Translations under genes and position numbers: made by a program
Notes under the pieces: generated by a model
Database searches by the model: none
What the model was told of the DNA's origin: nothing
What the model saw: the letters and a program-made list of their open reading frames with translations, nothing else
Part shown: piece by piece, positions 23,698-47,064 of the stretch
How positions within the stretch are numbered: position 1 is the stretch's first letter
Layout: every line of letters starts with the position of its first letter
Source: Candidatus Methanomethylophilaceae archaeon
GTDB taxonomy: Archaea > Thermoplasmatota > Thermoplasmata > Methanomassiliicoccales > Methanomethylophilaceae
Direction of reading: 5' to 3'
Assembly: GCA_944320485.1 (NCBI GenBank)
Contig: CALUHQ010000050.1
Coordinates: forward strand, 24,013 to 88,012
Length of the DNA stretch: 64,000 bases

Positions 23698-24765
23698 TCA
23701 GAATGGGGCCCTGCCGTATACCATCGGGGCCCCCGTAACCGTACCCGAACCAATCGGGACCGTCGCGGAACCGTTGTATCCAGATCCGTCATAGATGACG
23801 TGTGTCCAGTTGCCGTCCCCGATATGATATGCGGAGCTCAGATGCCCCACATCGCTGTGCATGTTGTCGATAGCTGTCTCCACATAGGCGAAGCGTGTAC
23901 CGTCGACATCGAAGACGGCGCTTCCGTCTGCTGACTCACCGTCAGCCAATGAGACTGCGGCCGACATGTGTCCCATGGTCGAGGACTCGAAGGCGACGAA
24001 ACCCACGTCGAGACCCAGGCGGAGACCGAGGTTGACGAACAGCGTGGCGGTGTCCTCGCAGTCGCCGTATCCCGTGTAAAGGGTCTCCTCAGCCGACGCC
24101 CAGAACTCGGTCGTGCCATACTGCTCAGAATCCGACATGTACTGGATGATGTCTTGGACGAAGTACGCCAACACAGTAGCCCTCTGGATGTTCGTGAGAC
24201 CGTCCATGATGGGTTCCAGGTACTCAACGGCCTGATCGACGGCGGAGGAGTCGTCCAGCATGAACACCGGCATAGGATCGGCATAGGTGGCATGGCGGAG
24301 CCTGCCTTCATCCGTCACGGACGACCAGTAGTCCCCACTCCACATGTTGACCGAGAACACCATGTTCCTAGTCAGGCCCGAGACCGAACCGTCCGAGGCG
24401 AACATCGGCATGCTCCAACCGTACTCGACGGACTTGGTGAAGCCCTCGCTGAACACCGCCTCGATAGATTCCACGGAATCGGTCGGGAAGGTCTCGATCA
24501 TCCTGTCCGAGACCATCGTCCCGTCATCGAACCACCCGTAGAAGGACATCCCGTCCTCTGGGACGGCCCTGACGGTGAGCTCGGAGCCGTAGTCCGCGAC
24601 GACCTCTACGTGTCCGAGGGAGATGTCGCTGGACTCCGGCGGGGTGACGTCGGTACCGGAAACGTCGATGCCCGATCCCCCCTCCTCATCGAGATGGGAT
24701 GCCACGGCGTAGACGCCGACGGCAACTAGGATGGTCGCGACGATGATCGCCAGCACTCTGTTCAC
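23698..24765 (-). CDS. transglutaminase-like surface protein, copy 2
   Basis: A 355-aa protein. N-terminal anchor or signal helix (4-23). A divergent InlB-type unit (about 50-105, 'GMSFYGWFDDG'). Then a transglutaminase-like cysteine-protease fold with the nucleophile in 'TGYGDCEDTATLFVNLG' (about 230-246) and the His in 'MGHMSAAV' (about 262). Such domains cleave or cross-link proteins, sometimes making isopeptide bonds; substrate unknown. Paralog of 30153-31736. Last gene of the DGR operon, 11 bp after the PKD protein gene. Confidence 0.8.
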   Translation of the reverse strand: MNRVLAIIVATILVAVGVYAVASHLDEEGGSGIDVSGTDVTPPESSDISLGHVEVVADYGSELTVRAVPEDGMSFYGWFDDGTMVSDRMIETFPTDSVESIEAVFSEGFTKSVEYGWSMPMFASDGSVSGLTRNMVFSVNMWSGDYWSSVTDEGRLRHATYADPMPVFMLDDSSAVDQAVEYLEPIMDGLTNIQRATVLAYFVQDIIQYMSDSEQYGTTEFWASAEETLYTGYGDCEDTATLFVNLGLRLGLDVGFVAFESSTMGHMSAAVSLADGESADGSAVFDVDGTRFAYVETAIDNMHSDVGHLSSAYHIGDGNWTHVIYDGSGYNGSATVPIGSGTVTGAPMVYGRAPF

Positions 24766-24776: not shown

Positions 24777-26288
24777 TCAGAGCATGATGTACGTCACAAC
24801 CGCCGCCATGGCGCAGATAACCGCCAAGGCAACGAGAACATAGCTCACGGGTCTGACAGCGAACACTACCGCGAAAATCACTGCGAGAGCTCCGAAGAGG
24901 ATCGGCAACCACCAGAGGTCGTTCCCATCATCGTCGCTAGGCTCATCTGGCTGTTCTGGGGCGGGCGGATCTGTCTCATAGGAAGAACCTGTGGATGCGT
25001 CGTACATGATGTAGACCACGTTCTCCCCACTGGTGTTGTAGGCGCTGACCGTTATCAGGTAATCGGCCATGGCATCGTAGGTGTGTTCGGAACTGTAAGT
25101 GTTGGTGGAGGTGTCTCTCGTGGGAACATCGCTGATCTCGGATCCGTCACCCCAATCGAACCTGATGCCCTGGGCGTCCCCTATCAGGGCCGACACGTTG
25201 ATGCTCAGGTTGTTCTCCGGGTCGGGCGTGACCGTGACGTCCTCCATGCTGGGGATCGACAGGTAGCTCATACCCGCCCACACACGGAGGGTGACAATCT
25301 TCGAGTCCGACACCTCTGTACCGTCGGCGGATGTGCCTGTGGCCGTGACGGAGAAGCTGTACTCCTTGTAATAGGGCCTGACGGGACGCTCGCCGAAATC
25401 GACTGCATCAGGGTCGAAGGTGACTGTGCCGTCGCCCTTGGAGGCGACGAGGCCGCTGACCGCGGGCACGACCTGGCCGATCTGGACACCTGTCACGGAG
25501 ACGAAATCCGCATCGTCGTAGTTGGTCGTCACGGTGTACGTGTTCCTGTCGACATCCTCGCATCCGACATAGGTCTCGATGACGTCGGGGGACGTTATCA
25601 CGAGGTCCTGGCCGAACCCCACCGTGACGTGGACGGTGGCCGTCTCGTCTGCGAGGGAACTGCCCTCTGCGGTGGCGGAGTTGGTGGCGGTGATGTCGAA
25701 GCTCAGGCTGAACCCCTCGATGTCCTCGGGGATGTCCTGGGTGATCACGACGCGGTTGGTCTCCTGATCCCATCCGATGTAGTCGTTCTCGGGGATGTCG
25801 CAGACGACAGTGGTCTCGGTGCCTGCTGTGGCCTGGGAGATCGTCGGTGCGTACACCACCGTCCCTGCGGTCTGCCCGCCGATGACGCCTCTGCTGACGC
25901 TGCTCTCGTAGTATCCGTCTATCGTGACATGTCCGTATATCTTGAACTCGATGTTCTGTGACGCGGACTGAGTCAGATCAGAATCCACGGTGGACGTCCA
26001 TACAGCAGTGACGACGGCATGGAGGTCTCCGGAAGTGTCGATGCTGCTGAAAGATGCTCTCATGGTGCCTGTCTCCGCATCCCATACGACACCCTCGGAC
26101 CCTGAGACGGTGATCTCCGAATCCAGATTTGTCGTCGGCACGTAGATGCACGTCTGACCCGTCCTCATCTCTAGTGTGTAGATCTCGGAGTCATCAGCAT
26201 CGACGCCCTGGCCGAGGACCACGAGTCCTGAGAACATGACAACCCCAATGACCAACGCGACCAAGGCCTTGTTCATACTCTCGTTCAT
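24777..26288 (-). CDS. PKD-domain membrane surface protein, copy 2
   Basis: A 503-aa protein. Signal peptide about 8-30, three or four Ig-like beta domains, a PKD-like domain with 'GIRFDWGDGSEISDVP' (about 355-435), an acidic Pro-rich linker, and two or three C-terminal TM helices. The same plan and C-terminal helix pattern occur in 31822-33498, so the two are paralogs. GGGAGGAATAAG precedes the ATG. It lies between the DGR target gene and the transglutaminase gene, and may be a structural partner of both. Confidence 0.8.
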   Translation of the reverse strand: MNESMNKALVALVIGVVMFSGLVVLGQGVDADDSEIYTLEMRTGQTCIYVPTTNLDSEITVSGSEGVVWDAETGTMRASFSSIDTSGDLHAVVTAVWTSTVDSDLTQSASQNIEFKIYGHVTIDGYYESSVSRGVIGGQTAGTVVYAPTISQATAGTETTVVCDIPENDYIGWDQETNRVVITQDIPEDIEGFSLSFDITATNSATAEGSSLADETATVHVTVGFGQDLVITSPDVIETYVGCEDVDRNTYTVTTNYDDADFVSVTGVQIGQVVPAVSGLVASKGDGTVTFDPDAVDFGERPVRPYYKEYSFSVTATGTSADGTEVSDSKIVTLRVWAGMSYLSIPSMEDVTVTPDPENNLSINVSALIGDAQGIRFDWGDGSEISDVPTRDTSTNTYSSEHTYDAMADYLITVSAYNTSGENVVYIMYDASTGSSYETDPPAPEQPDEPSDDDGNDLWWLPILFGALAVIFAVVFAVRPVSYVLVALAVICAMAAVVTYIML

Positions 26289-26338: not shown

Positions 26339-28666
26339 TCAGAGAACGCGCCTGAGCACGACCCCCGCAACGATTACAATCGCGATCGCCACAACAGCGT
26401 AGACCAGTATTCCGGGTCCGTCGTCCTCGTTTCCAGAGTCGTCGGTTCCGTCTGTGGTGTCAACGGTGTATGTGGAGACGGCATAGTCGCCGTCAGCATT
26501 GGTTACAGTCAAGGTGACGGTGTAGACCCCGGGTTCGGTGTACTCGTTGTAGGCGAGGACATCATCGGAGGTGTTCCCGTCGCCGAAGTCCCAATGGACC
26601 TGGTACCTTCCGTCACTGTCGGTTGCATCGAAGTAGTACAGCGAGCTGGTTCCAAGAACAGCGGTGATCTGGGCGTTGGCCGTGGGCACCGAGGTGAACA
26701 CCAGAGGGGGAACCCCCTTGGCGTACAGTGTCGTGTCCTCGTCAAGCGCCTGGGATGCGTCGTACTCGTTCACGAATCCCGAGTCATAGAACCACCCCTC
26801 GAAGACTCCCTCCACCATCAGCGGGGTGAACACGATACCCGAAGATCCTCCGGGGACCGTCAGTGTCGCGTAGTTCTGGCCTTCCACGATGTAGGTGATG
26901 GTGATCATGGGCATCTGCCATGCGGAGTATGCCGTGACGTTGCCGCTCGGCGTGTACTGTGCCCCGACTGCATAAAAGACGCCGTCGATGTACCATCCGG
27001 TATGGGTGTATCCGTTCACCGTACCCATACTGGGCAGAGTGTATGGGGTACCGTCAGGCTGTGCCCCAGAGGATGTCGCCAACTGATCCGAGGACTGACC
27101 GTAGTCGGTCAGCGCGCTGTGGTCGAATGTAATGGTGGAGTTATGTCTCCATACAGACGACACGGTCATGTTCTCCGTCGGCGTTACGGTATAGTTCACG
27201 GCCTGCTGTGATCCGTTCACCATCCATCCGATGTGGGTGAACTCCCCGACCGTTCCCAGGTTGGGGAGCTGGTAGCTCTCATCGGTCGGAACGAGAACGC
27301 TCGTGGCAAGGCCACTCGCGCTACCACCTGCGCCAGTAAGGGCACTGTGGTCAAAGGTTACAGTGTTGCCCGACGCCGGATCGGCGTCGAAAACAAAGGC
27401 CAGGCGCCCCCCAATGCTCGCGGTCGAGGTCGACAACGAACCGTAGGCGTACACACAGGACAACCCGTCGTCCAAGTCGTCGTACGAGCTACCGCCGACA
27501 AAGAGAACGCGGTTACTACTTGAACTGGTCCATATATAGTCATATAGTCCAGACGATGTCGATCCTCCGCTAGCTGTCGGCATACCCCAGAGTTCAGGGT
27601 GTGACGTACACGGTGATGATCCGTAACCAGAGCTGGGAAGAGATTGAGCGATGTAGGTCACATAGGTTCCCGAGGTGGCATCTGTAGGAGATGCGGACTG
27701 GTCGATGTAGTATCCGCTTCTTCCGTTGATGACGATTCCGTCCACAAAGTCGTATACGGATCCCCAGGCGTTCTCGATGAACACCTTGACGGAGTCTGTT
27801 CCGTAAGTGGAGTTGGAGCTCGTTCCCTTGGTTCCAGCATAGGGTCCGGACTGGTCGAGCTCTCCGGTGGTGGTGTAGTAGGGGGTTCCGTCGTAGTAGC
27901 AGTCACCAAGTCCGGCGACTCCCTGTGAATCCCAGGATCCCATCACCGCTAGGGCGCAATATTTGTAGAGCTCCCACTGGTAAAAGTTCCACACCATTGC
28001 GTAGCCGTTCTGTCCCTCGCCATCGGTGTTGACAGTCTGATTGTTGGCGTAGTCACGGAAGGTAGCCCTGGTGGCACTGACCAACGGGTTTGAATCCGTG
28101 GTCGACATCAAAATCGTGGATCCGCCGACTGAAGCGGTGGATGCCTCATAGACTCCGATTCCGATGTATTCATAGACATGTCCGTTGATTGTGTGTGCGT
28201 ATGCCTCTCCGCCCGAATCGGGGTCGTTAGAGAGGACTAGACTGGTCCCGCTGGTCTTCCAGTAGACAGTCGGTAAGCACCACATTACGTTGTAGTCCTC
28301 TCCGGCGATGCTGGTTCCATCGACCAGTTTCGTTAGGTCATCCGGATCCAGATGGCCTATCATCCTGTTGTTCTGTGCAGGATCGAATGCCGCATAAAAG
28401 CTGTTGAACGGCCCGTAACCGTCCTCGTTGAATCCCCAGGAACCAGAGTTAGACCCGTTCAGGCTAGTCCACGTTCCCGTGGTCGAACTGACGCCAATAG
28501 GTGATGTCCCCGATACGGTTCCTGTCGTCGAGATTGTGTAGGTGTAGATGTCGCCAGGTGCCGCGTCGGAGTCGTCATCAATCGCGACAGGGGTGAACAA
28601 CACAACGAGAGACAGAAGAACCGCGAAGGCTGCCATCATCCTACGACGGCTTTCTTTACTGTTCAT
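26339..28666 (-). CDS. DGR target: hypervariable C-type-lectin-like surface protein
   Basis: A 775-aa protein. Signal peptide about 1-34 ('MMAAFAVLLSLVVLFTPVAI' core). Residues about 90-430 form a C-type-lectin-like ligand-binding domain of the kind used by DGRs. Its end (385-425) is the variable repeat: 'RVLFVGGSSYDDLDDGLSC' leading to 'STASIGGRLAFVF', the usual '…GG…GGRL' framework with variable residues between. Three InlB-like repeats (about 430-660), a PKD domain ('YQVHWDFGDGNTSDDV', about 670-745), a TM helix and an RRVL tail follow. The variable domain is thus held outside the cell on a stalk. The ATG lies in the reverse-transcriptase stop (ATGA overlap), with a GAGGT site inside that gene. 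Typical DGR targets end with the variable repeat; here it is in the middle of the protein. Confidence 0.92.
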   Translation of the reverse strand: MNSKESRRRMMAAFAVLLSLVVLFTPVAIDDDSDAAPGDIYTYTISTTGTVSGTSPIGVSSTTGTWTSLNGSNSGSWGFNEDGYGPFNSFYAAFDPAQNNRMIGHLDPDDLTKLVDGTSIAGEDYNVMWCLPTVYWKTSGTSLVLSNDPDSGGEAYAHTINGHVYEYIGIGVYEASTASVGGSTILMSTTDSNPLVSATRATFRDYANNQTVNTDGEGQNGYAMVWNFYQWELYKYCALAVMGSWDSQGVAGLGDCYYDGTPYYTTTGELDQSGPYAGTKGTSSNSTYGTDSVKVFIENAWGSVYDFVDGIVINGRSGYYIDQSASPTDATSGTYVTYIAQSLPSSGYGSSPCTSHPELWGMPTASGGSTSSGLYDYIWTSSSSNRVLFVGGSSYDDLDDGLSCVYAYGSLSTSTASIGGRLAFVFDADPASGNTVTFDHSALTGAGGSASGLATSVLVPTDESYQLPNLGTVGEFTHIGWMVNGSQQAVNYTVTPTENMTVSSVWRHNSTITFDHSALTDYGQSSDQLATSSGAQPDGTPYTLPSMGTVNGYTHTGWYIDGVFYAVGAQYTPSGNVTAYSAWQMPMITITYIVEGQNYATLTVPGGSSGIVFTPLMVEGVFEGWFYDSGFVNEYDASQALDEDTTLYAKGVPPLVFTSVPTANAQITAVLGTSSLYYFDATDSDGRYQVHWDFGDGNTSDDVLAYNEYTEPGVYTVTLTVTNADGDYAVSTYTVDTTDGTDDSGNEDDGPGILVYAVVAIAIVIVAGVVLRRVL
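27371..27389 (-). promoter_or_regulatory. hairpin just beyond the variable repeat
   Basis: CGACGCCG-GAT-CGGCGTCG on the plus strand: a perfect 8-bp stem with a 3-nt loop, 2 nt beyond the 3' end (coding sense) of the VR. In the Bordetella phage DGR a hairpin/cruciform with an 8-bp stem a few nt after VR boosts retrohoming. Same position, so probably the same role. Confidence 0.7.
27392..27512 (-). repeat. DGR variable repeat (VR)
   Basis: 121 bp inside the target gene, matching the TR at 103 positions. The 18 mismatches are all T on the plus strand of the TR (A in coding sense) and become C, G or A. They alter 15 codons, 10 of them Asn in the TR and also Tyr, Thr and Ile, with one silent change. 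The 3' end (coding sense) is the invariant G-rich stretch GGGGGGCGCCTG, a likely initiation-of-mutagenic-homing site. Confidence 0.95.
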
Positions 28667-29748
28667 GCATATACCTCGTAATTATCGAACATGAACGCAC
28701 GGAGTGAACGACATCCGACGATCCAACGGTCGTGATCCTCTATTGCCCACACCACGGGTCTGATGACCTTACAATACAGGTTGTAGGAATCGCACCACTT
28801 GAGAACGCCATAATATGATGCGACCACTCCGCGATCATGCTTGTCGGGGGACTGCCCCGACTCCAGCTTCTTCATGATACTGGCCATCTCGCGCTTGATC
28901 CTGTACTTCGTCTTCTTCCTGACGAGAACATGGGTCTTGTAGATCCTGTATCCGAGAAAATCCACACCCTCAGTTCTAAGGTCTACGATCTGCCAGTTCG
29001 GTTTGACGGAATAATCGAGCATTTCGAGCTGAGCGCTAAGCTCGATGAAGATCTTGTTCAGCCACTGCTTTGAATTGCCGAAAATGAAGTAATTGTCGGC
29101 ATAACGGATGTAGCAGTGACAGTGAAGGACCTCCTTCATGTAATGATCGAGACGGTTGAGCATCAGGTTCAGGAACAGAGGCGATAGTCTGTTCCCGATG
29201 GCAATCCCGTCTCTGGGGTAGTCGTCAATGACCCTGTCGGAGTAGTTAAGAGTCCACTCATCCGCTATGTAGTCCCTTAGCGTGTCCTTCAGGATCTCTG
29301 TATTCGTAGATTCGTAGCATTTCTTAATGTCGGCGCTCAGACAGTAGATGATCTTCTCATGCTGGACATATTCCCAGGCCTGTGCCAGAGCTGAATGCGT
29401 ACCGTGATTTACACGAGATGCATAACTCTGGTCGATCATCTTAGGATCCAGCTTACGTTCCAGGACCTGAGCGACACATTGATTGGCGATTCTGTATGGA
29501 TAGAGATCCTGATCCGCGATCTCGCGGACCTTTCCATGTTCGAGTCTGATGAAGAACGTATACTCGGAAGCTCTGAGGCTTTCAGTCTCGAAGAGCCACA
29601 GAAGTTCGTCCATATTCTTCTCATAATCGATCTCGAACCTGGAGACCTCTGCCTTGTCCCTCCTTGCCTGACAGGCCTTCTTGGCACCCAGTGCAAGGTT
29701 CTCGGGACTCAGAATCTCTTTCTTGACGTTCTTGATCTTCTTAGGCAT
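28663..29748 (-). CDS. DGR-type reverse transcriptase
   Basis: A 361-aa RT copying the TR RNA into mutagenised cDNA. Visible RT blocks: 'IIYCLSADIKKCYESTNTEI' (first Asp), 'GIAIGNRLSPLFLNLMLNRL' (the G-N-x-x-S block of DGR RTs), 'YIRYADNYFIF' (catalytic box), and 'NWQIVDLRTEGVDFLGYRIY' plus 'LVRKKTKYRIKRE', a C-terminal signature close to that of DGR RTs. No maturase X or endonuclease domain, so not a group II intron. The catalytic box is YADN in place of the usual Y-x-D-D. ATG 29748 is chosen: the frame is open to 30153 but that part is the TR and RNA region. The stop overlaps the target gene start. Confidence 0.92.
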   Translation of the reverse strand: MPKKIKNVKKEILSPENLALGAKKACQARRDKAEVSRFEIDYEKNMDELLWLFETESLRASEYTFFIRLEHGKVREIADQDLYPYRIANQCVAQVLERKLDPKMIDQSYASRVNHGTHSALAQAWEYVQHEKIIYCLSADIKKCYESTNTEILKDTLRDYIADEWTLNYSDRVIDDYPRDGIAIGNRLSPLFLNLMLNRLDHYMKEVLHCHCYIRYADNYFIFGNSKQWLNKIFIELSAQLEMLDYSVKPNWQIVDLRTEGVDFLGYRIYKTHVLVRKKTKYRIKREMASIMKKLESGQSPDKHDRGVVASYYGVLKWCDSYNLYCKVIRPVVWAIEDHDRWIVGCRSLRAFMFDNYEVYA

Positions 29749-30152
29749 ACCATAGCCTTTGTTCTCTATCCGGACGTTCCACGATGGTACTAGCCCAGAT
29801 TGGGTCTTTTCTTGTATTTCGTCTCCAAGAGACGGGGCCCGAATCACAGGGATTGATGATGTATGAATCATCGCACTGGCGATGATACTGAGAACAATTG
29901 TCAGGCGCCCCCCAATGTTCGTGTTCGAGTTCGACAACGAATTGTTGGCGTTCACATAGGACAATCCGTCGTTCAAGTCGTTGTTCGAGTTACCGCCGAC
30001 ATAGAGAACGCGGAAAGCCCACGAGAGGGGACAGGTGTGAATGGGCCCATCCGTGGCCCCATCCATAGGGCCGTGGACAGTGAAGGGGCGATGCGTACCG
30101 CTGACGCTATCTTGTGCGTGCTGCTGGATAAGGTACGCATCGCAAAGGGTCA
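29749..30152 (-). ncRNA. DGR template RNA region
   Basis: A 404-bp gap between the transglutaminase gene and the RT. In coding sense: a 12-bp inverted repeat with a 31-nt loop (30143-30132 with 30100-30089), then the TR, then a 144-nt spacer before the RT with small hairpins (CGTCTC-CAA-GAGACG and GATGAT-ATCATC arms). The Bordetella phage DGR RNA also needs a spacer of about 140 nt between TR and RT for cDNA priming, so this size match supports a functional RNA. Ends and processing are inferred. Confidence 0.75.
29893..30013 (-). repeat. DGR template repeat (TR)
   Basis: 121 bp, the invariant donor of the VR. Thirty adenines in coding sense, 18 of which differ in the VR. If translated in the VR frame it reads with AAC/AAT (Asn) codons at most variable positions, the codon that gives the widest choice under adenine mutagenesis. 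It lies upstream of the RT, 144 bp from its start. Confidence 0.95.
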
Positions 30153-30163
30153 TCAGATGACCC
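30147..30163. terminator. palindrome at the end of the transglutaminase gene
   Basis: GGGTCATC-A-GATGACCC, perfect 8-bp arms spanning the stop codon of 30153-31736. It may be a terminator or RNA-processing hairpin that marks the 5' side of the DGR RNA. Confidence 0.4.
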
Positions 30164-31736
30164 TCCCGACTATGATTATGCCAAGGATAATGGCCAACGC
30201 TCCTCCAACAATGTAGAGGACAGTGTGATCCTCTGATTCGCCGTTGGAATCTTCAGTGAAGGGAACATCCTCCGTCTCAACGGTCAAGGAGTCCCCTCCG
30301 TAGATCAGGTAGTGGTCGGAGCTCCCGTTCTCGACGGAAGCCTCCTCTACGATCAAGGTGACTGTCTGAACCGCGGTCTGTGTCGGTCCGACTGTCGATG
30401 TGGCAGTGAGAATCACCGTGTACGTCCCAGCCTTCGTAGCTGTTCCGCTGAGGGTCTGCATGGAATCGTCCCAAGTCAGGAAACCGCCGTTCTCGACCAG
30501 ACCGTCGCCAGTGACGACGTACGTAGCGGGTAGCGTGGTCTCCGGGGTGTAGGCGAAGCCGTCGCCCACCCTCATGGGGACCGCGGGGGGATCGGAGTAG
30601 GAATCGCCGTAGACGATCCCGCCTGTCGATCTCTCGCCGTTCCCGATGCTGAGGGTGGACTCCGCGGTGAAGGTACCGTCGGAGTACACGATGTGCGTCC
30701 ATGTCCCATCGGTGATCAAATAGGAGTCACCGAGGATCCCGAACATCGGATGGTAGTTCTCGATGAGAGAGGGGTCCACGGCGGTCTCACCGTAGGCGTA
30801 TGTCACACCGTCCACGACGAAGGTCGCGACGTTCTCACCGGTCACGGCCTCGTCCTCCTCGAGGGCGACGGCGATGGACATGTGCCCGGTGCCGTCGGTC
30901 CCGTAGCGGTCCGAATCGAACGTGACGAACCCGCAGTCCACACCCATCGCGGATGCGATGGATACGAACAGGGTCGCGCCGTCCTCGCAGTCGCCATAGC
31001 CGAGGAACAACGATTCCATCGGCGTCGCCCAGAACTCCTCCTCGTCGTACAGGTTCCAGTCCGTCTCGTAATCTATCGCGTCCTGGACGAATGCAAGGAT
31101 GACCATCGACTTCTGAAGGTTGGTAAGACCCTCGGTGTAGGGCCGGAGCTGCTCCACGATGTCGGCGATGACGCCGTCATCGGTCAGCAGGGCCACGGGC
31201 GACGGGACCCTGACCTCCGAACCCCTCTGGATGTCAGATTCTAAAGAGTCGTACCAGTCGAAGGACGAGATCGAGACGTTCAGCCTCTCGGGTTCGTTCC
31301 CGAACGTGACGGAACCGTCTCCATTGAAGATTGGCATGTACCACTGGATCTCGATAGAGCGTGTCCCTCCCGAGTCGAAGTGCGCGGTGTAGTCCCTGTC
31401 CTCGTCGGCGGCGAACGTCATCGACGGGTTGTCGGTCACGAAGTTCCCTTCGCTGTCCGTCCAATAAAGGAACTGGAATCCCTCCCTGGCAACGGCACGG
31501 TAGGTAATCGTCGGGTTGTCGGGATCCGTGATGTCGTAGGACTCGGTCACGGGGATCAGGGAGCCCATGTCGATGTTGTCGACGAACGGACCGACCGAGA
31601 TGGACCCGCCGTTGCCGGTGGTCCCATCGGGATCAGAACCGGTGTTCCCGTCCTCCGAGTCGAACATCCCGTAGGCGAGAACGGCGATGACTGCCACCGC
31701 TATGACCGCAACCAACACGGTCTGAGGCTTGATCAT
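30153..31736 (-). CDS. transglutaminase-like surface protein, copy 1
   Basis: A 527-aa protein. N-terminal anchor helix (6-24), a divergent InlB-type unit (about 75-125, 'GFQFLYWTDSEG'), then a transglutaminase-like domain with the nucleophile Cys in 'LGYGDCEDGATLFVSIA' (about 245-262) and His in 'GTGHMSIAV'. A cadherin-like Ig domain (about 375-465) and a C-terminal TM helix follow. GGAGGTGAT 5 nt before ATG 31736 sets the start; the open frame upstream is not coding. Paralog of 23698-24765 but longer. Candidate processing or cross-linking enzyme for the surface proteins made by the same operon. Confidence 0.82.
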   Translation of the reverse strand: MIKPQTVLVAVIAVAVIAVLAYGMFDSEDGNTGSDPDGTTGNGGSISVGPFVDNIDMGSLIPVTESYDITDPDNPTITYRAVAREGFQFLYWTDSEGNFVTDNPSMTFAADEDRDYTAHFDSGGTRSIEIQWYMPIFNGDGSVTFGNEPERLNVSISSFDWYDSLESDIQRGSEVRVPSPVALLTDDGVIADIVEQLRPYTEGLTNLQKSMVILAFVQDAIDYETDWNLYDEEEFWATPMESLFLGYGDCEDGATLFVSIASAMGVDCGFVTFDSDRYGTDGTGHMSIAVALEEDEAVTGENVATFVVDGVTYAYGETAVDPSLIENYHPMFGILGDSYLITDGTWTHIVYSDGTFTAESTLSIGNGERSTGGIVYGDSYSDPPAVPMRVGDGFAYTPETTLPATYVVTGDGLVENGGFLTWDDSMQTLSGTATKAGTYTVILTATSTVGPTQTAVQTVTLIVEEASVENGSSDHYLIYGGDSLTVETEDVPFTEDSNGESEDHTVLYIVGGALAIILGIIIVGRVI

Positions 31737-31778
31737 ATCATCACCTCCGAGTGATTGACATCGACCGACCGGGAAGGG

Positions 31779-31798
31779 AGGGTCGGGAACCCGACCCT
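31779..31798 (-). terminator. intercistronic hairpin
   Basis: AGGGTCGGG-AA-CCCGACCCT, a perfect 9-bp stem in the 85-bp gap between 31822-33498 and 30153-31736. Probably a partial terminator or RNA-stability element. Confidence 0.5.
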
Positions 31799-31821
31799 GT
31801 TTCATCCGGTCGGATCGAAGA

Positions 31822-33498
31822 TCACTCCCCGTTTCCGAAAAGGTCTCCGATCGCGTCGCCGATGCCAGCGAAGTCGACATACACGAACAGCAGGACGGCG
31901 AGGATCGCGCAGACGATGAGTCCAACGATCCAGACGGGGTTCTGAGGCATGATGTAGATGAATCCGATGACACAGAACACCGCGAGGGCTGCGAAGACGA
32001 TGAAGAGCCATCCGTGCTCGTCGAAGAAGGACTGCTCTCCGTCGGCAGGCTGCTCGGGCTCGTCGGTTCCGGCTCCGGCCTGCTCCTCTCCGACGCTGTA
32101 CATGACCTTGGAGGTTGTAGTTCCCTGGTCGTTGGTGGCGTAGACGGTGGCGAGGTAGGTTCCGGGTGCGGAGTAGGTGTGTGTACTGGAGTAGTTGGCG
32201 GAGGACGCAGAATTGGACATGGGGATTGTCCTGTAACCGTCTCCCCACTCGATCACGACAGAATCGGCTCCAGAGATGTATGTGGAGAGGAGAATCGTAC
32301 TGGAATTGGTTCCGACAGGGGTAGCATCGATGGATGCGATGCTGGGGGTCGTGGTGAACTGGAAGGACTTGTAGACATGGACATAGAAATCCATGGTAGC
32401 GGTGGAGGTCCCATCTCCCTCGCTTCCCTCGTTTTCAGTGATGGTTCCTGTCACAGAGACGGTGGCCTGGTAGGTCTTGCTGGTCTGATCCTCATCGACG
32501 AGGCTTCCCATCGTAGCACCTGTAACCCCTGAGATGATTATATGATCAGCATTGCCAGAGTCCTGGGAGAGGATTGTGTCTGCCGAAGGTGTGAAGGTTA
32601 CTACAGAATCCTGAGCGATTGTGTTATCATTGCTGTCATTGTCATAACTGACCTCAACATTGATTCCCTCGGCAAGCCAGGATGAAGAATCCCCCTCATA
32701 GGTGTAGAAATGAGTCTGAGTGTTCTCGATCGCGATCTCATCATAGACATAAATCGTTGCAACGACCTGGGCGGTATCCTGGGTCGCACTGTTGGTCAGA
32801 GTCATGGTGAGCGTGTAGGATCCAGCTTCAACATCGGCATCATCAAGTGTCTCGTTCGTGGAGACAGTGATGGTGTTGCTGGCCATTGTCACCTTGAAAG
32901 GAGTCCCGGAAACGCCAGTGGTTCCATCGGCCCCATTGACGAGAAGATTGATGTCTCCTGTACCAGTATAGTTGATTGTCAGAACCTGGGTATCAGCAGC
33001 CCATCCGTACAGTGCATGAGCAGTTATCGTAGGGCCTACAGACAATCCCTGTGTAATGACGAAATTGATCGTCTGTGTGGCGGTCTGAGTGATTGTGTTT
33101 CCATCATCGCTGGGATCGAGAGTCCAGGTAGCGGTCAGTGTACCAGTCCTTGTTGTTCCAGCACCAGTGGCGAATGTTCCTGAAAGCTGTCTCTCTTCTG
33201 AATCCCAAGCGATTCCATCCTGACCTGTCTCATCGGCTGCGTTTCCGGACCACACAATGTTGAGGGTACCTTCGGCATCATCGAGAGATGTGGTTATGTT
33301 ATCGTATACAAACTGCTGTCCGGTGGAGATGTCGAGGGTGAAGACCTGATCGACAGCGGTGCCGGACTGATTGAGACTGCTGTAGGAGGCAGCCTCGGAT
33401 TCCTCCGTCGCGAATACAGCGGCGAAGGAACACAGGACAAGGGCCAGCACTGTGAAGATGGCGAGAGTCCTGTTCACGGCCGTTTTTGTTGCATTCAT
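31822..33498 (-). CDS. PKD-domain membrane surface protein, copy 1, operon head
   Basis: A 558-aa protein. Signal peptide about 9-30 ('TLAIFTVLALVLCSFAAVFA'), Ig-like domains rich in Thr/Ser, a PKD-like domain with 'SVVIEWGDGYRTIPMSN' (about 375-450), an acidic linker and C-terminal TM helices (about 480-540). ATG 33498 follows GGTGAGGAG; part of this site pairs in a CACCT-AACG-AGGTG leader hairpin. First gene of the operon that contains the DGR; promoter copy E is about 85 bp upstream. Paralog of 24777-26288. Confidence 0.82.
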   Translation of the reverse strand: MNATKTAVNRTLAIFTVLALVLCSFAAVFATEESEAASYSSLNQSGTAVDQVFTLDISTGQQFVYDNITTSLDDAEGTLNIVWSGNAADETGQDGIAWDSEERQLSGTFATGAGTTRTGTLTATWTLDPSDDGNTITQTATQTINFVITQGLSVGPTITAHALYGWAADTQVLTINYTGTGDINLLVNGADGTTGVSGTPFKVTMASNTITVSTNETLDDADVEAGSYTLTMTLTNSATQDTAQVVATIYVYDEIAIENTQTHFYTYEGDSSSWLAEGINVEVSYDNDSNDNTIAQDSVVTFTPSADTILSQDSGNADHIIISGVTGATMGSLVDEDQTSKTYQATVSVTGTITENEGSEGDGTSTATMDFYVHVYKSFQFTTTPSIASIDATPVGTNSSTILLSTYISGADSVVIEWGDGYRTIPMSNSASSANYSSTHTYSAPGTYLATVYATNDQGTTTSKVMYSVGEEQAGAGTDEPEQPADGEQSFFDEHGWLFIVFAALAVFCVIGFIYIMPQNPVWIVGLIVCAILAVLLFVYVDFAGIGDAIGDLFGNGE

Positions 33499-33577
33499 AA
33501 ATTCCAACTCCTCACCTCGTTAGGTGGGCGAGTGGAATTTCGGATGAGTCGATTTAATCGGCAGAATACGGATTGAT

Positions 33578-38741: not shown

Positions 38742-39016
38742 GAAAACCTCTTGCCCACGGTCTCGTAGGCGTTGCAGATGCCGTCGTAGCTCAACTGCCT
38801 GAGCAGCCTCACCAGCAGGTCATCGGCCAGTATGTGCTTCTTGCCCTCTGGCGTGGGGTCGCACATAGCTATGCGTCTGAGAAGGACCTCGATCTCGTCG
38901 GGGAAGAGGTCGCGCGCCGGGGGATCGATGAGGTCCACGTCGGTGCAGTCCTCGGGAACACCCATCTCGGCCGCGAGGATGCCCCAGACCTTGGATTCCG
39001 TCTGCGGGTCCATCAC
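38738..39016 (-). CDS. small helical hypothetical protein
   Basis: A 92-aa acidic protein with helices 'TESKVWGILAAEMGVPEDCT' and 'LADDLLVRLLRQLSYDG'. ATGA overlaps on both sides. No family recognised. Confidence 0.6.
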   Translation of the reverse strand: MMDPQTESKVWGILAAEMGVPEDCTDVDLIDPPARDLFPDEIEVLLRRIAMCDPTPEGKKHILADDLLVRLLRQLSYDGICNAYETVGKRFS

Positions 39017-39588
39017 TCGTCACCCCCCGCGATTCCGGTCAGCCTGAGAGCGCACTCCATCGTGACGGCGGCGTCGCCAAGCGATGTGTGGGCGCGGTGC
39101 GCCTCGTCGAAGTCCACACAGCAGTATGCAGCGCAGTCGGCCAGCCTGTGCCTTCCGCCGTCTCCCACGGTGTTGTAGAACTGGTTGAAGACGTCGAACA
39201 GCACAGTCCTCGGGACATTGAAGCCGTTAGACTCCATCATGGGGAGATCGAAGCGGGTGTGGTTGTAACCCACGATTATCTCAGCCTCCGACAGGACCGA
39301 CTCGACCTCGTCCCTGATCTGGGGGACGGACGGGGCGTCCCTGACGTCCCTAGGCGAGATGCGGTTGATCCTGTACGCCTCGGGCCAAACAGTCTTCCTG
39401 TATGTGTGGATCAGGGAGTCGAACAGGGGGTTGCCGTCCAGATCGACGATGGACAGCGATATGATGCCATCCCTCTGGGGGTCCAGCCCCGTGGTCTCGG
39501 TGTCCAGACAGACGATCCTCTCGGGCGCCTCCTCGACGACCTGACGGAAGTATTCGTCGCGGATCATCCATTCGGGGTAGTAGGTCAT
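39013..39588 (-). CDS. DnaQ-type 3'-5' exonuclease
   Basis: A 191-aa DEDDh exonuclease. ExoI 'IVCLDTETTGLDPQ' (residues 26-39, Asp and Glu), ExoII 'IIVGYNHTRFDLPMM' (about 104-118, Asp), ExoIII 'HTSLGDAAVT' (about 172-181, His and Asp). All catalytic residues are present. It hydrolyses 3' ends of DNA (or RNA) and, within an element that has PCNA and a GINS-like protein, may act in proofreading or end trimming. GGGGAGG in the preceding gene serves as ribosome site. Confidence 0.85.
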   Translation of the reverse strand: MTYYPEWMIRDEYFRQVVEEAPERIVCLDTETTGLDPQRDGIISLSIVDLDGNPLFDSLIHTYRKTVWPEAYRINRISPRDVRDAPSVPQIRDEVESVLSEAEIIVGYNHTRFDLPMMESNGFNVPRTVLFDVFNQFYNTVGDGGRHRLADCAAYCCVDFDEAHRAHTSLGDAAVTMECALRLTGIAGGDE

Positions 39589-39908
39589 GCCACCGCCTCC
39601 CCAGACCTATCGGCGTAGAGGCTGTCGAAGTCGATGACCTCCGAATCCATGACGGCGTCCCTCGGGGTCAGCCTGTGTGCGTAGCGGTAGCCGCGCCAAG
39701 GCTTCCCCCTGTATGTCCCGACCACGTCCCTCCACGAGCGGAAGATCCCGTCGGTGTACAGTGCGGAGGCGATGTTCGATGCGCCCTTCCAGAGGTCCAA
39801 GTCGATCCTCGCGGCGGAGACCCCCGGATGCTCGCGGACGTACCACTCGACCCTCTCGCAGCGGGTCTCGACCATCGTCGGGACCCCCTCCACGGTGATA
39901 CGCCTCAC
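39585..39908 (-). CDS. winged-helix-like protein
   Basis: A 107-aa protein starting GTG (GTGA overlap). 'CERVEWYVREHPGVSAARID' then 'LWKGASNIASALYTDGIFRS' reads as the helix-turn-helix of a winged-helix domain, followed by a basic wing 'YRGKPWRGYRYAHRL'. Probably DNA-binding. Confidence 0.6.
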   Translation of the reverse strand: MRRITVEGVPTMVETRCERVEWYVREHPGVSAARIDLDLWKGASNIASALYTDGIFRSWRDVVGTYRGKPWRGYRYAHRLTPRDAVMDSEVIDFDSLYADRSGEAVA

Positions 39909-40042
39909 AGTACCAGCCCCGCGAAGAGGACGAGCATGACCACGATGGCGAACGCGAGGACGGCGATGGCCAGACTGTAGATCCTGTACTTGTGCTTGAG
40001 ATAGGGCAGGATGTCGTCGAACTCCTTCGGCTCGGAGATCAT
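39905..40042 (-). CDS. 45-aa single-TM protein
   Basis: A 45-aa protein, MISEPKEFDDILPYLKHKY then one TM helix 'IAVLAFAIVVMLVLFAGLVL'. Linked on both sides by ATGA/GTGA overlaps, which supports a real gene despite its size. Small TM proteins of this sort occur in archaeal viruses; function unknown. Confidence 0.6.
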   Translation of the reverse strand: MISEPKEFDDILPYLKHKYRIYSLAIAVLAFAIVVMLVLFAGLVL

Positions 40043-40431
40043 TCTCTCACATCCATGTCGAGCAGCAGGGAGGCCTCACGCATGACGTTGCGGACGCTGG
40101 CGTACATCTTGGCCTCCACGGGCGGAAGGTCGCGGTCCTCGGACTCGCCGGAGTGGTGCTCCCTGATGGCGAGGAAGACGACCTTCTGCATCCTGATGTG
40201 CTGGATGTCGTCACAGAGCCTGCGGACCTTGAGGGCGCGACGGCGGGAGCTCTCCGACTCCTCGGAGCCGGGGTCCTCCGACCTAAGCGCGTTGCACTCG
40301 TCGTCCAGCCTTGTGTACAGACGGGCCATCTGCCTGTAGAGGTCCTTGGGGACCTCCGACAGCCTCCTCTGATGGGTGAGCTCATCGCGGTAGAGGTCCA
40401 CTAGGTCCTGCGTGTCGGTGACCTCGATCAT
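40039..40431 (-). CDS. GINS-like replication protein
   Basis: A 130-aa helical protein. 'DLYRDELTHQRRLSEVPKDL' then 'YRQMARLYTRLDDEC', a variable linker, 'LCDDIQHIRMQKVVFLAIRE' and 'LPPVEAKMYASVRNVMREA' follow the A-domain of archaeal GINS51/GINS23, where an 'R-x-x-K-I-…-A' helix and a closing 'E…Y…' helix are typical. GINS joins MCM and Cdc45/RecJ in the replicative helicase. The small B domain is missing. Together with PCNA in the same gene series it suggests the element steers or supplies replisome parts. Call by visual pattern only. Confidence 0.5.
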   Translation of the reverse strand: MIEVTDTQDLVDLYRDELTHQRRLSEVPKDLYRQMARLYTRLDDECNALRSEDPGSEESESSRRRALKVRRLCDDIQHIRMQKVVFLAIREHHSGESEDRDLPPVEAKMYASVRNVMREASLLLDMDVRE

Positions 40432-40613
40432 TCGAAATCCTCCTCGTTGTACTCGGAGACCTCGTAGGCGTCGATGTCAAAACCGTCGGCATCGAGTCCC
40501 AGGGCGAAGTCCTCGAGCATTTCCTCTACCTCCGCCTTGGCATCCTCGGGAGATTCGGCCTCGATGAGGATGTTCAGGATGTCCATGGACGCCTTGACGA
40601 TGTACGAGGTCAT
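40428..40613 (-). CDS. small acidic protein
   Basis: A 61-aa protein: strand 'YIVKASMDILNILIEAESPE' then helix and an acidic tail ending NEEDFE. The strand-helix-acid plan resembles the 'phage protein with DxxxAxxxAE helix' that many viruses carry. ATGA overlaps. Function unknown. Confidence 0.55.
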   Translation of the reverse strand: MTSYIVKASMDILNILIEAESPEDAKAEVEEMLEDFALGLDADGFDIDAYEVSEYNEEDFE

Positions 40614-40849
40614 TCGGATCCCTCCGCCCTCGCCTTCGGGAACTGGATGAACGTGAGCGCGCCGACCCCGTCCATGACGTAGGTGTGCTGTCCGTTCTTG
40701 CATACGCCGTCCATGTGGGTCATGACCGCGCGGATGCACTCCTCGGTCCTGTCGACCCTGTCGTCGGGCATCAGCCCGTCCCTAGTCGGCACCCCGTCGA
40801 AGATCCTGTTCGTGATGGGGGAGACCATCAACTGTCTGGCCCCCGACAT
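40610..40849 (-). CDS. DUF7446-like phage-type protein
   Basis: A 79-aa protein. 'MVSPITNRIFDGVPTRDGLM' followed by 'DRTEECIRAVMTHMDG' matches a family of small phage proteins that begin 'VSPLTNxIxAGxxxxDGxxW' and continue 'VTxxAxxAVxxHM'. Role unknown in all members. Confidence 0.65.
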   Translation of the reverse strand: MSGARQLMVSPITNRIFDGVPTRDGLMPDDRVDRTEECIRAVMTHMDGVCKNGQHTYVMDGVGALTFIQFPKARAEGSE

Positions 40850-41430
40850 CAGTCCTCGCCCCCGTCATCCTCGTCCCCGTCCATGACGGCGTCCTCAAGG
40901 GCGCTGACGCGCTTGGCCAGCTCCGCGAGGATCTGTGCGTATCCCAGATGGGTCTCGGTCACGATCTTGAGGCATTGGGTGAGGAAGTCGATCCTGTCCG
41001 AAATGTACCCGAGGTCGGTCTCGTCCCCCGACTCGGGGGGTTCGGGCGGCACGGGGATGTCTATGGGACTGCCGGGGACTACGTCGTCGTCCTGATCCCC
41101 CTCATCGTCGTCCCCGTCGTCGCCGAAGCCGCCGATGTCGTACTCCATCCTCTCGTCGATGATGTCCTCGATCTCCTCGAAGTCGACCATGAAACCGATC
41201 AACCCCGTGGCGAAATCCCTCCTCGCATCGTTCAGGTCCCTGTTGATGCCCGTGACCGCCTTCGGATCGTCCGATACGGCCGTGTACATGTCCACGGCGC
41301 GCTCGGCGACCTTCTCGAGCCTCGAGGCGTACCTGCAAATCGCCTCCATGTCGTCCTCGACCCTCTCGTAGGCGCCGATCAGGTCGCGCATCATCCTCTC
41401 GTCAACTTTCTTCGTCTTGTCTCCGTCCAT
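40849..41430 (-). CDS. coiled-coil acidic protein
   Basis: A 193-aa protein: N-terminal coiled coil (about 10-95), an Asp-rich segment ('GDDGDDDEGDQDDDVVPGSP'), a Pro-rich linker, a second helix and an acidic tail. AAAGGAGG 9 nt before ATG 41430 is the strongest ribosome site nearby; an ATG at 41514 overlapping the previous stop (ATGA) would give 221 aa. The upstream 80 bp share CCAAACCCCTTCC with the leader of 52842-52985. Confidence 0.6.
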   Translation of the reverse strand: MDGDKTKKVDERMMRDLIGAYERVEDDMEAICRYASRLEKVAERAVDMYTAVSDDPKAVTGINRDLNDARRDFATGLIGFMVDFEEIEDIIDERMEYDIGGFGDDGDDDEGDQDDDVVPGSPIDIPVPPEPPESGDETDLGYISDRIDFLTQCLKIVTETHLGYAQILAELAKRVSALEDAVMDGDEDDGGED

Positions 41431-41510
41431 AGGGTGTCCTCCTTTGCTCATTACTTTGTACGTCCCGTGGTTAAACTCGACGGGACACCTGTCTTGGGAA
41501 GGGGTTTGGG

Positions 41511-41891
41511 TCATGCCCCGTCCCTCCCGACCCACGGAGGGTCCTTGGGGAAGCGGGGCTGGGATTGGTTGTTGCGAAGCTCGGCGACGGCCATCTCGAG
41601 GGATTCGAGCTGGGCCATGACACCGGAAAGAAGCATGTCGTCACGGCGGGCGTGGAGGTCGGAACCGAACCCGGAGCGGACGGGGGCCGTCCCTCCCGAG
41701 ATGGAGAAGTCCCCTCCGCAGCGGGGGCATCTGGACTCCCACGAGACGTTCCTCGCGTCGATGCGCCCGTCCCCGGGATCGCAGGCGGGGTGGAACCTGA
41801 CGGAATCCCTGGGGACGGACGTCCCGCAGTAGGGGCAGGCGACGCCCAGACGTCCGTCGAGGACGACCAGACGTGCCTGCGAAAGTGTCAT
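41511..41891 (-). CDS. zinc-ribbon and coiled-coil protein
   Basis: A 126-aa protein. 'ACPYCGTSVPRDSVRFHPAC' and 'RCPRCGGDFSIS' form a zinc ribbon (about 18-70); the C-terminal half is a coiled coil 'VMAQLESLEMAVAELRNN' and a basic end. ATGA overlap with the upstream gene. Confidence 0.6.
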   Translation of the reverse strand: MTLSQARLVVLDGRLGVACPYCGTSVPRDSVRFHPACDPGDGRIDARNVSWESRCPRCGGDFSISGGTAPVRSGFGSDLHARRDDMLLSGVMAQLESLEMAVAELRNNQSQPRFPKDPPWVGRDGA

Positions 41892-42232
41892 TGGGAATCC
41901 CTCCCGCGGAGTTCGAGATAGTCCTTCCAAGCGGCCTCGGCCAGTTCCCTGCGGATCCTCTGATGTATGTAACTGTCCTCGTACGAGCGGTCCAGATGCA
42001 CGGACAGGCGGTGGATCACCTCTGACCACGACTCGGGCCCATACTCGGAGGCCATGTCCATGAGGATGCCGAACTCAGTCTTGCTGAAATCGATCGGGCA
42101 GAGGATGTCCTCGGTGTAGGAGAAATCCCCGTCCTTGGGGAAGTCGGACAGCACGTAGGGATGGATGCAGACGTCCCCCTCCTCACCGTAGACGAGATGG
42201 GGGCAGGGGAAGCCCAGATCACATGGCTTCAT
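41888..42232 (-). CDS. hypothetical protein with N-terminal Cys motif
   Basis: A 114-aa protein. 'CDLGFPCPHLVYGEEGDVC' at the start could bind a metal (three Cys, one His). 'ILMDMASEYGPESWSEVIHR' and 'AAWKDYLELRG' are helices. Overlaps both neighbours by 4 bp. It precedes neither a known partner nor a motif of known function. Confidence 0.58.
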   Translation of the reverse strand: MKPCDLGFPCPHLVYGEEGDVCIHPYVLSDFPKDGDFSYTEDILCPIDFSKTEFGILMDMASEYGPESWSEVIHRLSVHLDRSYEDSYIHQRIRRELAEAAWKDYLELRGRDSQ

Positions 42233-43128
42233 CGCAGCACCCCCCTCTCGTGGCGGTACTCGGCGAAATCCGCGCTCCAGAACACGTGCGGACGTGTCCA
42301 TCTCTTGAGGTCAGTCATCCTCTGGGTGCGGGCAGCCTGCCTGTTGACCATGATGTACGGCGTTGTCCTCTCGGCGCGAAGGATCTCGCACCTCTCGAGG
42401 GCGGAGTCGAAATCGTCGTCGTTGTCCAGATAGACGTACCAGTTGGTCCTGCTGCGGAGGTTGACGCCTGCGTCCCTCAGCAGGCGGATCCCGCGAAGGA
42501 CCTCGTCCCTGTAGTCCAGACTGTCGAAGGCGAAGTGCCATGCGTCGATCGGCCTGAGCTCCGCGATGCGTCTTGCAATGTCGGCGTCGACCAGCCTGAT
42601 GTCCAGACCTTGGTTGAAGTCCACCTTGAGGCCGTTGTCCAGGAACCACTGCGTGATCTCGAGGAACCAGTCCTTGTCGAGGAGCACGTTGTTGTCCATG
42701 AGGACGACCTTGTCATGGGACGGGTCGTGGAACTCCGACGGGTGCTGGGTGATGCGGAAGCGACCTTCCTTGCGGGGGACGACACAGAACCTGCATGCCC
42801 TGTCGCATCCGCGCGTGGTGAACCCAAGGTCGAAGTCGCATTCGGGGTAGATGCTGTAATCGGGCATCATGAGGTCGACCTCCCTGGGAAGGGTCTTGTG
42901 GAGGTCGTAGGCCCCTCCACCGATGTCGATCTTGGCGTCGGGATAGCACATCCTCAGCCCGTAGACCTTGTGGCGGTTCCAACTGAACACCACGCTGGCC
43001 CAGACCTCCTCGGGGTCGGGGATGTCGAACCCCGCCTCGATGCCGAGGCCCTTCCTCCATGCGGAGATGTGCATGAGGGCAAGATTGGGGATGGTGGAGT
43101 CGACGTCCACCAGAAGCGCCCCGTTCAT
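42229..43128 (-). CDS. radical SAM enzyme, phage type
   Basis: A 299-aa protein. The cluster motif is 'TTRGCDRACRFCVVPRKEG' (Cys-x3-Cys-x2-Cys, about residue 110-118). The N-terminal part 'ALLVDVDSTIPNLALMHIS' resembles the front of B12-type radical SAM proteins without the His of a cobalamin site. 'VLMDNNVLLDK' and 'DFNQGLDIRLVDADIA' are typical later strands. It would use S-adenosylmethionine and a 4Fe-4S cluster; substrate unknown. It is close to a PAPS-reductase-like gene, a pairing often seen in phages, so a nucleic-acid or cofactor modification is plausible (inference). Confidence 0.8.
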   Translation of the reverse strand: MNGALLVDVDSTIPNLALMHISAWRKGLGIEAGFDIPDPEEVWASVVFSWNRHKVYGLRMCYPDAKIDIGGGAYDLHKTLPREVDLMMPDYSIYPECDFDLGFTTRGCDRACRFCVVPRKEGRFRITQHPSEFHDPSHDKVVLMDNNVLLDKDWFLEITQWFLDNGLKVDFNQGLDIRLVDADIARRIAELRPIDAWHFAFDSLDYRDEVLRGIRLLRDAGVNLRSRTNWYVYLDNDDDFDSALERCEILRAERTTPYIMVNRQAARTQRMTDLKRWTRPHVFWSADFAEYRHERGVLR

Positions 43129-43505
43129 GAGAACACCACCATGTCGGAGTCGGCGAAGATCCCGATGATCCTGTCCAGTGTTTTCATCCTCTCGGGGTCG
43201 GCATCCGCCGGGATCCTCTTACGGACGGCCTCGAGCGCATGGGCGACCTGTTCGGGGGAGTGGAACTCACCCTCGCAGTCGGGGCTGGACATGAACTGCC
43301 AGAGCCAGTAGCGGTCGGCGGTCATCTCGGACTCTGGACGGTCCGCCTTCTGGTAGTCCATGTCTCCCGCCTCCATCCACGAGCGGTAGGCTAGCTGGAA
43401 GTCAAGCGGGGTGTAGCCCGCCAGCCATGTCCTGAAACGGAGGAACCCCCCGTATCCGACGCGAAAGCGGTCGGATTCTCTGAGGGAGACGATGGCGAGT
43501 CCCAT
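43125..43505 (-). CDS. hypothetical protein between two enzymes
   Basis: A 126-aa, helix-rich protein: 'GYGGFLRFRTWLAGYTPLDF', 'RYWLWQFMSSPDCEGEFH' and a helix 'EQVAHALEAVRKRIPADAD'. Overlaps the radical SAM gene (ATGA) and the PAPS-type gene (TGATG), so all three are co-translated and may act together. No family recognised. Confidence 0.6.
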   Translation of the reverse strand: MGLAIVSLRESDRFRVGYGGFLRFRTWLAGYTPLDFQLAYRSWMEAGDMDYQKADRPESEMTADRYWLWQFMSSPDCEGEFHSPEQVAHALEAVRKRIPADADPERMKTLDRIIGIFADSDMVVFS

Positions 43506-44880: not shown

Positions 44881-45118
44881 AGCCGACCCCCCAGACCTCG
44901 GACACGGGCTTGACATCCCACTCGTGGGCGGCGAAGTCGTCGCGGATTGCCTTCAACGTCTCTATGTCGAAATCCGCGTCGTTGAAGCTGATCCCGTCGG
45001 CATCCCATGTGAAGAACTCCTCGTCACACCAACGGGCGTGCTTGCAGACGACCTCGTAGATGAAATCCAGATCCCTGACGGTGAATCCCCTCGGGAAGCG
45101 GAAGCTGATGCTAGTCAT
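44870..45118 (-). CDS. small hypothetical protein, tandem copy 2
   Basis: An 82-aa protein: 'FRFPRGFTVRDLDFIYEVVC', 'WDADGISFNDADFDIETLKA', 'IRDDFAAHEWDVKPVSEVWG'. Clearly a paralog of the next gene upstream (45115-45420) along its whole length. No known domain. Tandem duplication of an orphan gene is consistent with dosage or antigenic-type divergence. Confidence 0.65.
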   Translation of the reverse strand: MTSISFRFPRGFTVRDLDFIYEVVCKHARWCDEEFFTWDADGISFNDADFDIETLKAIRDDFAAHEWDVKPVSEVWGVGYVC

Positions 45119-47062: not shown

Positions 47063-47064
47063 GG

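Follow-up and report, generated by a model that had tools for sequence, protein, structure and literature searches.

The window analysed here, a stretch of 64,000 nucleotides from a Candidatus Methanomethylophilaceae archaeon (GenBank assembly GCA_944320485.1, contig CALUHQ010000050.1), carries a diversity-generating retroelement (DGR). The locus is a DGR by several tested features, namely the adenine bias of the differences between its template repeat (TR) and variable repeat (VR), the clade of its reverse transcriptase (RT), the predicted lectin fold of its target and the presence of a hairpin. A probability of about 0.93 is given to the reading that this DGR likely uses adenine-directed mutagenic reverse transcription to renew the binding face of a C-type lectin of the archaeon, which is predicted to be membrane-anchored. 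The window belongs to an 88-kb contig of a 1.7-Mb, 88%-complete assembly, and methane formation is a property of the family Methanomethylophilaceae. On the minus strand, the order of transcription is a transglutaminase-core gene, the TR, a 144-nt spacer, the RT gene and the target gene (Table 1).

The TR and the VR lie on the same strand at an offset of 2501. As the sequence-only reading had reported, they are 121 bp long, identical at 103 positions and different at 18; this count was reproduced. All 18 differences are found at the 30 TR adenines (hypergeometric chance 7e-14) and correspond to 10 changes from A to G, five from A to T and three from A to C. When the match is widened to 124 bp, it includes one extra change, C to T, which does not involve an adenine. 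The TR adenines are distributed over codon positions 1, 2 and 3 (14, 14 and 2, respectively), and the 19 codons that hold them give access to about 10^16.6 proteins and to no stop codon. The 3' ends of both repeats share a GC-rich tract, GGGGGGCGCC, directly 3' of which the sequences diverge, making it a candidate initiation of mutagenic homing (IMH) site. A search of the assembly found this single VR. A perfect hairpin with an 8-bp stem is also found directly 3' of the TR (29867-29886, ATCATCGCCAGTGCGATGAT) and is shorter in two related loci, L021 and L022.

The likely impact of the system on natural proteins can be seen in relatives of the target, 32 homologues of which were aligned as protein sequences. 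Eight pairs of homologues do not display any difference outside the VR (731-733 residues). Seven of these pairs differ at 12-16 of the 42 VR columns (for example P0061/P0062, P0065/P0067, P0072/P0074 and P0075/P0076), the eighth, P0067/P0068, showing one VR difference. P0075 has exactly the sequence of the G077 target, G077 being a genome of the same genus in which the TR is known; it shows 0/731 differences from P0076 outside the VR and 12 within, all 12 at TR-adenine codons, which are 20 of the 46 codons (p 3e-6). In a group of six alleles, 17 VR positions vary, 16 of them at TR-adenine codons, against one of 729 positions elsewhere. These six alleles are 78% identical to the target of the window and the other two pairs 74-75%. 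The search for VR variation in relatives that the sequence-only reading had proposed, made here on proteins instead of reads, thus found differences almost only in the VR and at adenine codons. As these differences are confined to the VR of otherwise identical proteins, the cell likely keeps rewriting its recognition protein.

The target carries hydrophobic segments starting at residues 9 and 748, two stretches of Flg_new repeats and a PKD domain, and 350 residues follow the VR. Structure prediction of residues 36-435 gives a C-type lectin fold at the VR, which bears out an earlier suggestion; an AlphaFold model of the full target with 32 sequences had a mean pLDDT of 53.5 in the lectin part, which was resolved by a deeper alignment. 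The prediction is that the archaeal cell itself bears this C-type lectin, anchored in its membrane. The idea that the archaeal cell, and not a phage tail, displays the protein agrees with its signal and anchor segments and with a conserved row of cellular genes, display remaining a prediction. The favoured roles are recognition, between cells or between a cell and a particle, or else evasion of viruses for which the protein would serve as receptor. The lectin is related to viral tail proteins: the target shows 36.5% identity over 375 aligned columns with the tail protein of vir215 (E 1e-47 in a set of eight), and its residues 98-426 match the tail protein family phrog_5302 (E 2.6e-30), whereas the target of vir525 (L196) does not match it. 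DGR RTs have already been deposited for these two viruses of methanogens.

Among 102 genomes of the family, 14 display an RT match at a threshold of 1e-10. Nineteen RT loci, including that of the window, were read; 14 of them carry a TR/VR pair, and TR adenines account for 267 of the 277 differences, the filter used having required 75% of differences to be at adenines. Eight of these 14 loci (the window and L021-L027), here called cell-type, display the order TR-RT-target. All eight targets have an N-terminal hydrophobic segment and a mid-protein VR followed by 73 to 1606 residues; three run off the stretch, and four of the five complete ones also carry a C-terminal hydrophobic segment, L027 being devoid of it. 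The six other loci, called virus-type, display the order VR-TR-RT; in their five complete targets, the VR is followed by 5-6 residues and no such segment is present, the target of L031 being cut by the contig end. A TR/VR pair was found in 80 of 102 viral loci, some of which are closely related, so that the following counts are not independent: the order is VR-TR-RT in 80/80 and TR-RT-VR in 0/80, and the VR lies within 30 residues of the protein end in 77/80 (median 4; exceptions at 33, 33 and 156). Therefore, the earlier claim that the gene order and the mid-protein VR are unusual holds against viruses (0/80 and 3/80) but not within the family, where 8/14 loci share both. In a sample of 389 genomes from the phylum, an RT match at 1e-30 was found in six, all from the genus of the window. 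No cellular DGR of Methanomassiliicoccales was found in the titles and abstract openings of the papers listed, in a literature of incomplete coverage.

The RT is located between the TR and the target, as the sequence-only reading had noted, and matches Pfam RVT_1 and phrog_1423 (E 5e-84). A profile of its relatives compared with solved structures scores 240 bits with the BPP-1 DGR RT (8ub7, whose chain was confirmed as the BPP-1 RT on one sequence stretch) and 125 bits with the next, a group II RT; the single protein scores 78.5 bits with the BPP-1 RT and 45.5 with the next. A group II intron maturase was considered and rejected (NCBIfam TIGR04416, 104.5 bits for a cut-off of 300). Motif 4 carries Ile in the RT of the window and Gln in the three group II-like rows where it is readable. 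In a tree of 62 rows, the RT of the window nests with RTs having their own TR/VR, in a 17-row clade (support 100/100) included in a 25-row group (94/73); this grouping with DGR RTs leaves the earlier reading unrefuted by phylogeny. The 25-row group contains all seven TR-RT-target loci of the tree and no virus-type locus, its 18 other rows being proteins without known gene order, and is nested within several supported, mostly viral, branches of DGR RTs. Seven group II-like rows are far from the RT of the window but beside BPP-1 and other long branches, because of which the deepest joins are unsure. All 17 rows of the clade carry the catalytic motif YADN, the rest of the 25-row group carrying YMDD, YIDD or FMDD, and P0022, outside the tree, carries FADN. 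For P0006, P0010 and P0018, YADN was read in the aligned rows, since an automatic reading that kept the first loose match gave other strings. A second Asn variant, YLDN, is found outside the YADN clade in the RT of L019, a virus-type DGR of G077. A single paper, on an Escherichia coli genome, was listed for YADN together with reverse transcriptase. When genome contigs were scanned using only the RT, 23 stretches fitted a pattern, but none of them encodes a relative.

The hairpin located 3' of the VR is in the reading frame, directly after the last lectin strand; an 8-bp stem is reached by a fraction of 0.004 of 500 letter shuffles. The same 8-bp stem is found in the window, L021 and L022 (known for L022 from a separate hairpin comparison, the control pattern having missed it), different 8-bp stems are found in L025 and in L026/L027 with a GAT core, and L024 has a stem of 5 bp. 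As a control, 17 lectin loci were fetched, and the domain end was recognised in seven of them (eight copies). None of these eight lectin copies that are not linked to an RT, including the second copy of the giant protein of L025, carries a stem longer than 5 bp; therefore, the palindrome goes with the DGR and not with the fold (L023 apart). At the stop codon that comes after the VR, the virus-type loci L028-L031 and L033 carry hairpins of 5-6 bp, for instance GGCCGTCCTCGGCC. The DGR hairpin of BPP-1 and other phages is described as GC-rich, with a stem of 7-10 bp, located 4-34 bp after the VR and needed for efficient homing (PMC3240598). The 8-bp stem of the window is within this range, although its loop differs from the published GRNA loop. 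Two other loci deserve mention. L025 (G070) encodes a giant target, with an open frame of 5182 aa from about 7.8 kb and repeated lectin domains; its fetched part includes one TR match, in the first lectin copy, and that copy alone has the hairpin. L199, the target homologue of genome G075, is devoid of hairpin, in a genome without RT match, and might be a relic left after DGR loss.

The spacer between TR and RT is read as the portion of the DGR RNA to which the RT binds, by analogy with BPP-1, in which this part is known (PMC12875486). Between the window and L021, it is 73% identical, against 64% for the RT. Versus L021/L022, its synonymous change is 0.26-0.29 (RT, 0.68-0.69) and its dN/dS 1.07 and 1.04, respectively (leader, 0.55-0.56; RT, 0.17-0.19); the RT has a dN/dS of 0.13 between L021 and L022. 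The TR region and its flanks fold better than shuffles (z -3.2), and the stem located 5' of the TR shows two pairs changed on both sides among the window, L021 and L022. This stem rests on these three DNA sequences, because a test at the protein level did not discriminate (11.9/12 pairs with own arms and 11.5 with swapped arms). The assignment of the spacer to Rfam RT-17 (RF03020) was rejected (23.4 bits for a gathering score of 40.4); this cut-off is reached by three of 13 related loci, all virus-type, the best cell-type locus, L007, scoring 38.9 bits. An alternative is that the TR is part of the RT protein, a 496-aa open reading frame (ORF) from 30153 being translated with the template as coding leader of the RT. 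Indeed, the ORF 28663-30153 spans the RT and the TR in frame, TR and RT also share one open frame in L021 and L022 and in the 23 RT homologues (window included) that were chosen by length among 57 and aligned, a TGATG overlap joins this long frame to the stop of the 30153-31736 gene, and spacer and leader have dN/dS values below 1 between L021 and L022 (0.59 and 0.60). However, a dN/dS of about 1 together with a synonymous change lower than that of the RT is the mark of an RNA, not of a protein; there is no such frame in 10 of the 13 DGR loci read; and the frame stays open in 8.7% of random-change trials, so that its conservation is only weakly telling. Fusion is thus improbable: since the spacer reads as RT-binding RNA, the joining frame is more likely a by-product.

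If the mechanism resembles that of Bordetella, the TR RNA with its 144-nt spacer would bind the RT, cDNA would be made with errors opposite adenines, and the mutated cDNA would replace the VR beside the GC-rich tract and the hairpin. Judging from homology and from the tree, the cassette may have been captured from a tailed virus, the variable tail end being fused to a stalk and an anchor, and the homing hairpin, intergenic in viruses, may have become a coding linker, allowing the VR to sit mid-protein. Such a capture by the cell is probable on sequence comparison, because the lectin and the variable end of viral tail proteins are homologous and because the RT nests among viral DGR RTs. Transfer in the other direction, tailed viruses taking up a cellular lectin and its DGR, is unlikely, even if 20 of the 102 family genomes contain the lectin domain, partly in virus-type targets and also in very long frames away from RT matches. 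Indeed, the cell-type RTs placed in the tree form one group nested in several supported and mostly viral branches, and, among the loci read, virus-type DGRs have an intergenic homing hairpin and cell-type ones a coding hairpin.

Could the cassette belong to a provirus and diversify a virion tail protein? The homology of the lectin to viral tail proteins would fit, as would the right part of the window, with its genes for an integrase-like recombinase, a DNA polymerase exonuclease, a radical SAM protein and a methyltransferase, and the virus-type DGRs of the same genus, one RT of which is identical to that of an IMG/VR contig. However, the two hydrophobic segments of the target and its long part past the VR distinguish it from the five complete virus-type targets and from the viral loci. 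Apart from the tail-like lectin that belongs to the target, the gene row at 23.7-33.5 kb showed no virion gene; the four neighbours scanned have no virion PHROG match, one having a weak match of unknown function. The row PKD-TGase-TR-RT-target-PKD-TGase is kept in G077 (54-74% identity), and PKD, transglutaminase, RT and target are kept in genome G004 (34-46% identity). Two viral scans did not reveal any close relative among the matches listed (80 of 588 for one of them, so that near records may be missing), the best segments being 28-42% identical. That the cassette belongs to a provirus is therefore very improbable. Very improbable too is a dead DGR, an old TR/VR pair having lost its activity. 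DGR loss may occur, since G075 has a target homologue and no RT match, but the RT frame of the window is open with conserved motifs, the 121 bp include no change outside adenines, no stop is reachable, and the alleles of relatives differ almost solely in the VR.

Several points weigh against the proposal that an active cellular DGR rewrites the lectin. The alleles come from relatives, and the copy in the window is presumed active by extension. One variable VR position of the six-allele group (Ala/Val) is outside adenine codons, and this group was scored on the TR of G077 and not on its own. The residue that follows the Asp of the catalytic motif is usually a catalytic Asp (YxDD), from which the YADN active site deviates. 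No accessory variability determinant (Avd, PF05635) was found in the genome, by a search that was positive in no control genome. L023 (G004) lacks a hairpin 3' of the VR, an integrase-bearing element lies about 9-28 kb from the cassette, and the virus-to-cell direction depends on a tree with a heavier sampling of viruses than of cells.

The system can be compared with several known DGRs. Like that of BPP-1 (mtd, avd, TR, brt), it has its TR before the RT, a 144-nt spacer, a DGR RT, a C-type lectin target and a GC-rich hairpin 3' of the VR (PMC3240598); unlike it, BPP-1 has the order VR-Avd-TR-RT, a VR at the end of mtd, a YMDD motif and an Avd, and is a virus and not a cell. The DGRs of Methanomassiliicoccales viruses (vir215 and IMG/VR relatives) are related by their RT (33.6%) and by the variable domain, but vir215-type DGRs display the order target-TR-RT, a VR separated from the stop by 4 residues, a target devoid of membrane segment and YMDD. 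Nanoarchaeal (DUSEL4) DGRs also belong to archaeal cells and are described with a hairpin inside the target gene, the loops of which carry a GRA trinucleotide instead of the ATC/ATG (GAT or CAT on the other strand) of window-type loops (Paul 2015, PMC4372165). Cellular membrane-bound targets described by Roux 2021 (PMC8144416) share the anchor, adhesion-type domains and a C-type lectin VR, whereas the VR of the window is mid-protein and its hairpin coding. This large survey describes VRs as typically C-terminal in targets, a position that it attributes to a requirement for intergenic non-coding cis elements (PMC8144416). The VR protein of Thermus aquaticus, TaqVP (5vf4), shows 13-18% identity and a Foldseek TM of 0.43. 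TaqVP is not known to carry a stalk and an anchor of the kind found here. The novelty lies in the probable grafting on an archaeal surface, together with a VR placed mid-protein, a homing hairpin that is coding, a changed gene order and an RT clade reading YADN. Four of the findings go beyond the sequence-only reading: the coding hairpin, the YADN active site, the kinship with viral tail proteins and an integrase-bearing element at about 39-59 kb.

Table 1. Features of the DGR locus and of its surroundings in the window
Feature	Position	Strand	Remarks
Template repeat (TR)	29893..30013	-	121 bp, 30 adenines; 18/18 TR/VR differences at TR adenines
Variable repeat (VR)	27392..27512	-	target residues 385-425, mid-protein; allelic variation of relatives nearly confined here
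DGR-type RT	28663..29748	-	361 aa, own ATG; YADN; motif 4 IGNRLSP; RVT_1, phrog_1423, 8ub7, tree
Target	26339..28666	-	775 aa; predicted signal segment, C-type lectin domain, Flg_new repeats, PKD, C-terminal hydrophobic segment
Lectin domain as modelled	27362..28561	-	target residues 36-435
Coding hairpin 3' of VR	27371..27389	-	8-bp perfect stem; encodes DADPAS linker
TR-RT spacer	29749..29892	-	144 nt; likely structured part of DGR RNA; weak RT-17 match 29757-29839
12-bp stem 5' of TR	30088..30143	-	arms 30132-30143 and 30088-30099; 12/12 pairs in window, L021, L022
Transglutaminase-core protein, predicted surface	30153..31736	-	Pfam Transglut_core (on ORF 30153-31973); G077 neighbour 70% identical
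PKD-like protein downstream of target	24777..26288	-	Pfam PKD below cut-off; G077 neighbour 74% identical
Second transglutaminase-core protein, same gene row	23698..24765	-	Pfam; G077 comparison
PKD protein upstream	31822..33507	-	Pfam; G077 comparison
Recombinase/integrase	57680-58627	-	element at about 39-59 kb
DNA polymerase exonuclease	39013-39588	-	element at about 39-59 kb
Radical SAM protein	42229-43128	-	element at about 39-59 kb
PAPS-reductase-like protein	43505-44467	-	element at about 39-59 kb

Three larger proteins located left of the gene row also carry Flg_new repeats. The two transglutaminase-core proteins that flank the DGR target (23698-24765 and 30153-31736) show weak LapG-like matches. 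As LapG releases adhesins in bacteria, these proteins might process the lectin. Beside this row of surface-protein genes, the region 39013-58627, with dense short minus-strand ORFs, is likely a provirus or another mobile element; those of its ORFs that were scanned, a part of the total, include no virion gene. A DNA cytosine methyltransferase (54963-56639) displays a weak intein C-terminal signature above cut-off (residues 216-239) and perhaps carries an intein.

Globally, it seems reasonably likely that a methanogen lineage domesticated the tail-fibre diversifier of a tailed virus, by grafting it on a surface stalk, with a coding hairpin, a YADN RT and about 10^16 binders. The association of a mid-protein VR with a coding hairpin widens where diversification can be aimed and makes the explanation given for C-terminal VRs testable. 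Furthermore, a clade of DGR RTs with an altered catalytic motif is now on offer. Methane-forming archaea gain a likely hypervariable recognition protein, natural alleles of which are already present in databases. If the capture is true, the host-recognition engine of a virus became the cell's own and, if the domestication is true, these cells hold a self-renewing repertoire of surface binders derived from the tool with which a virus hunted its hosts.

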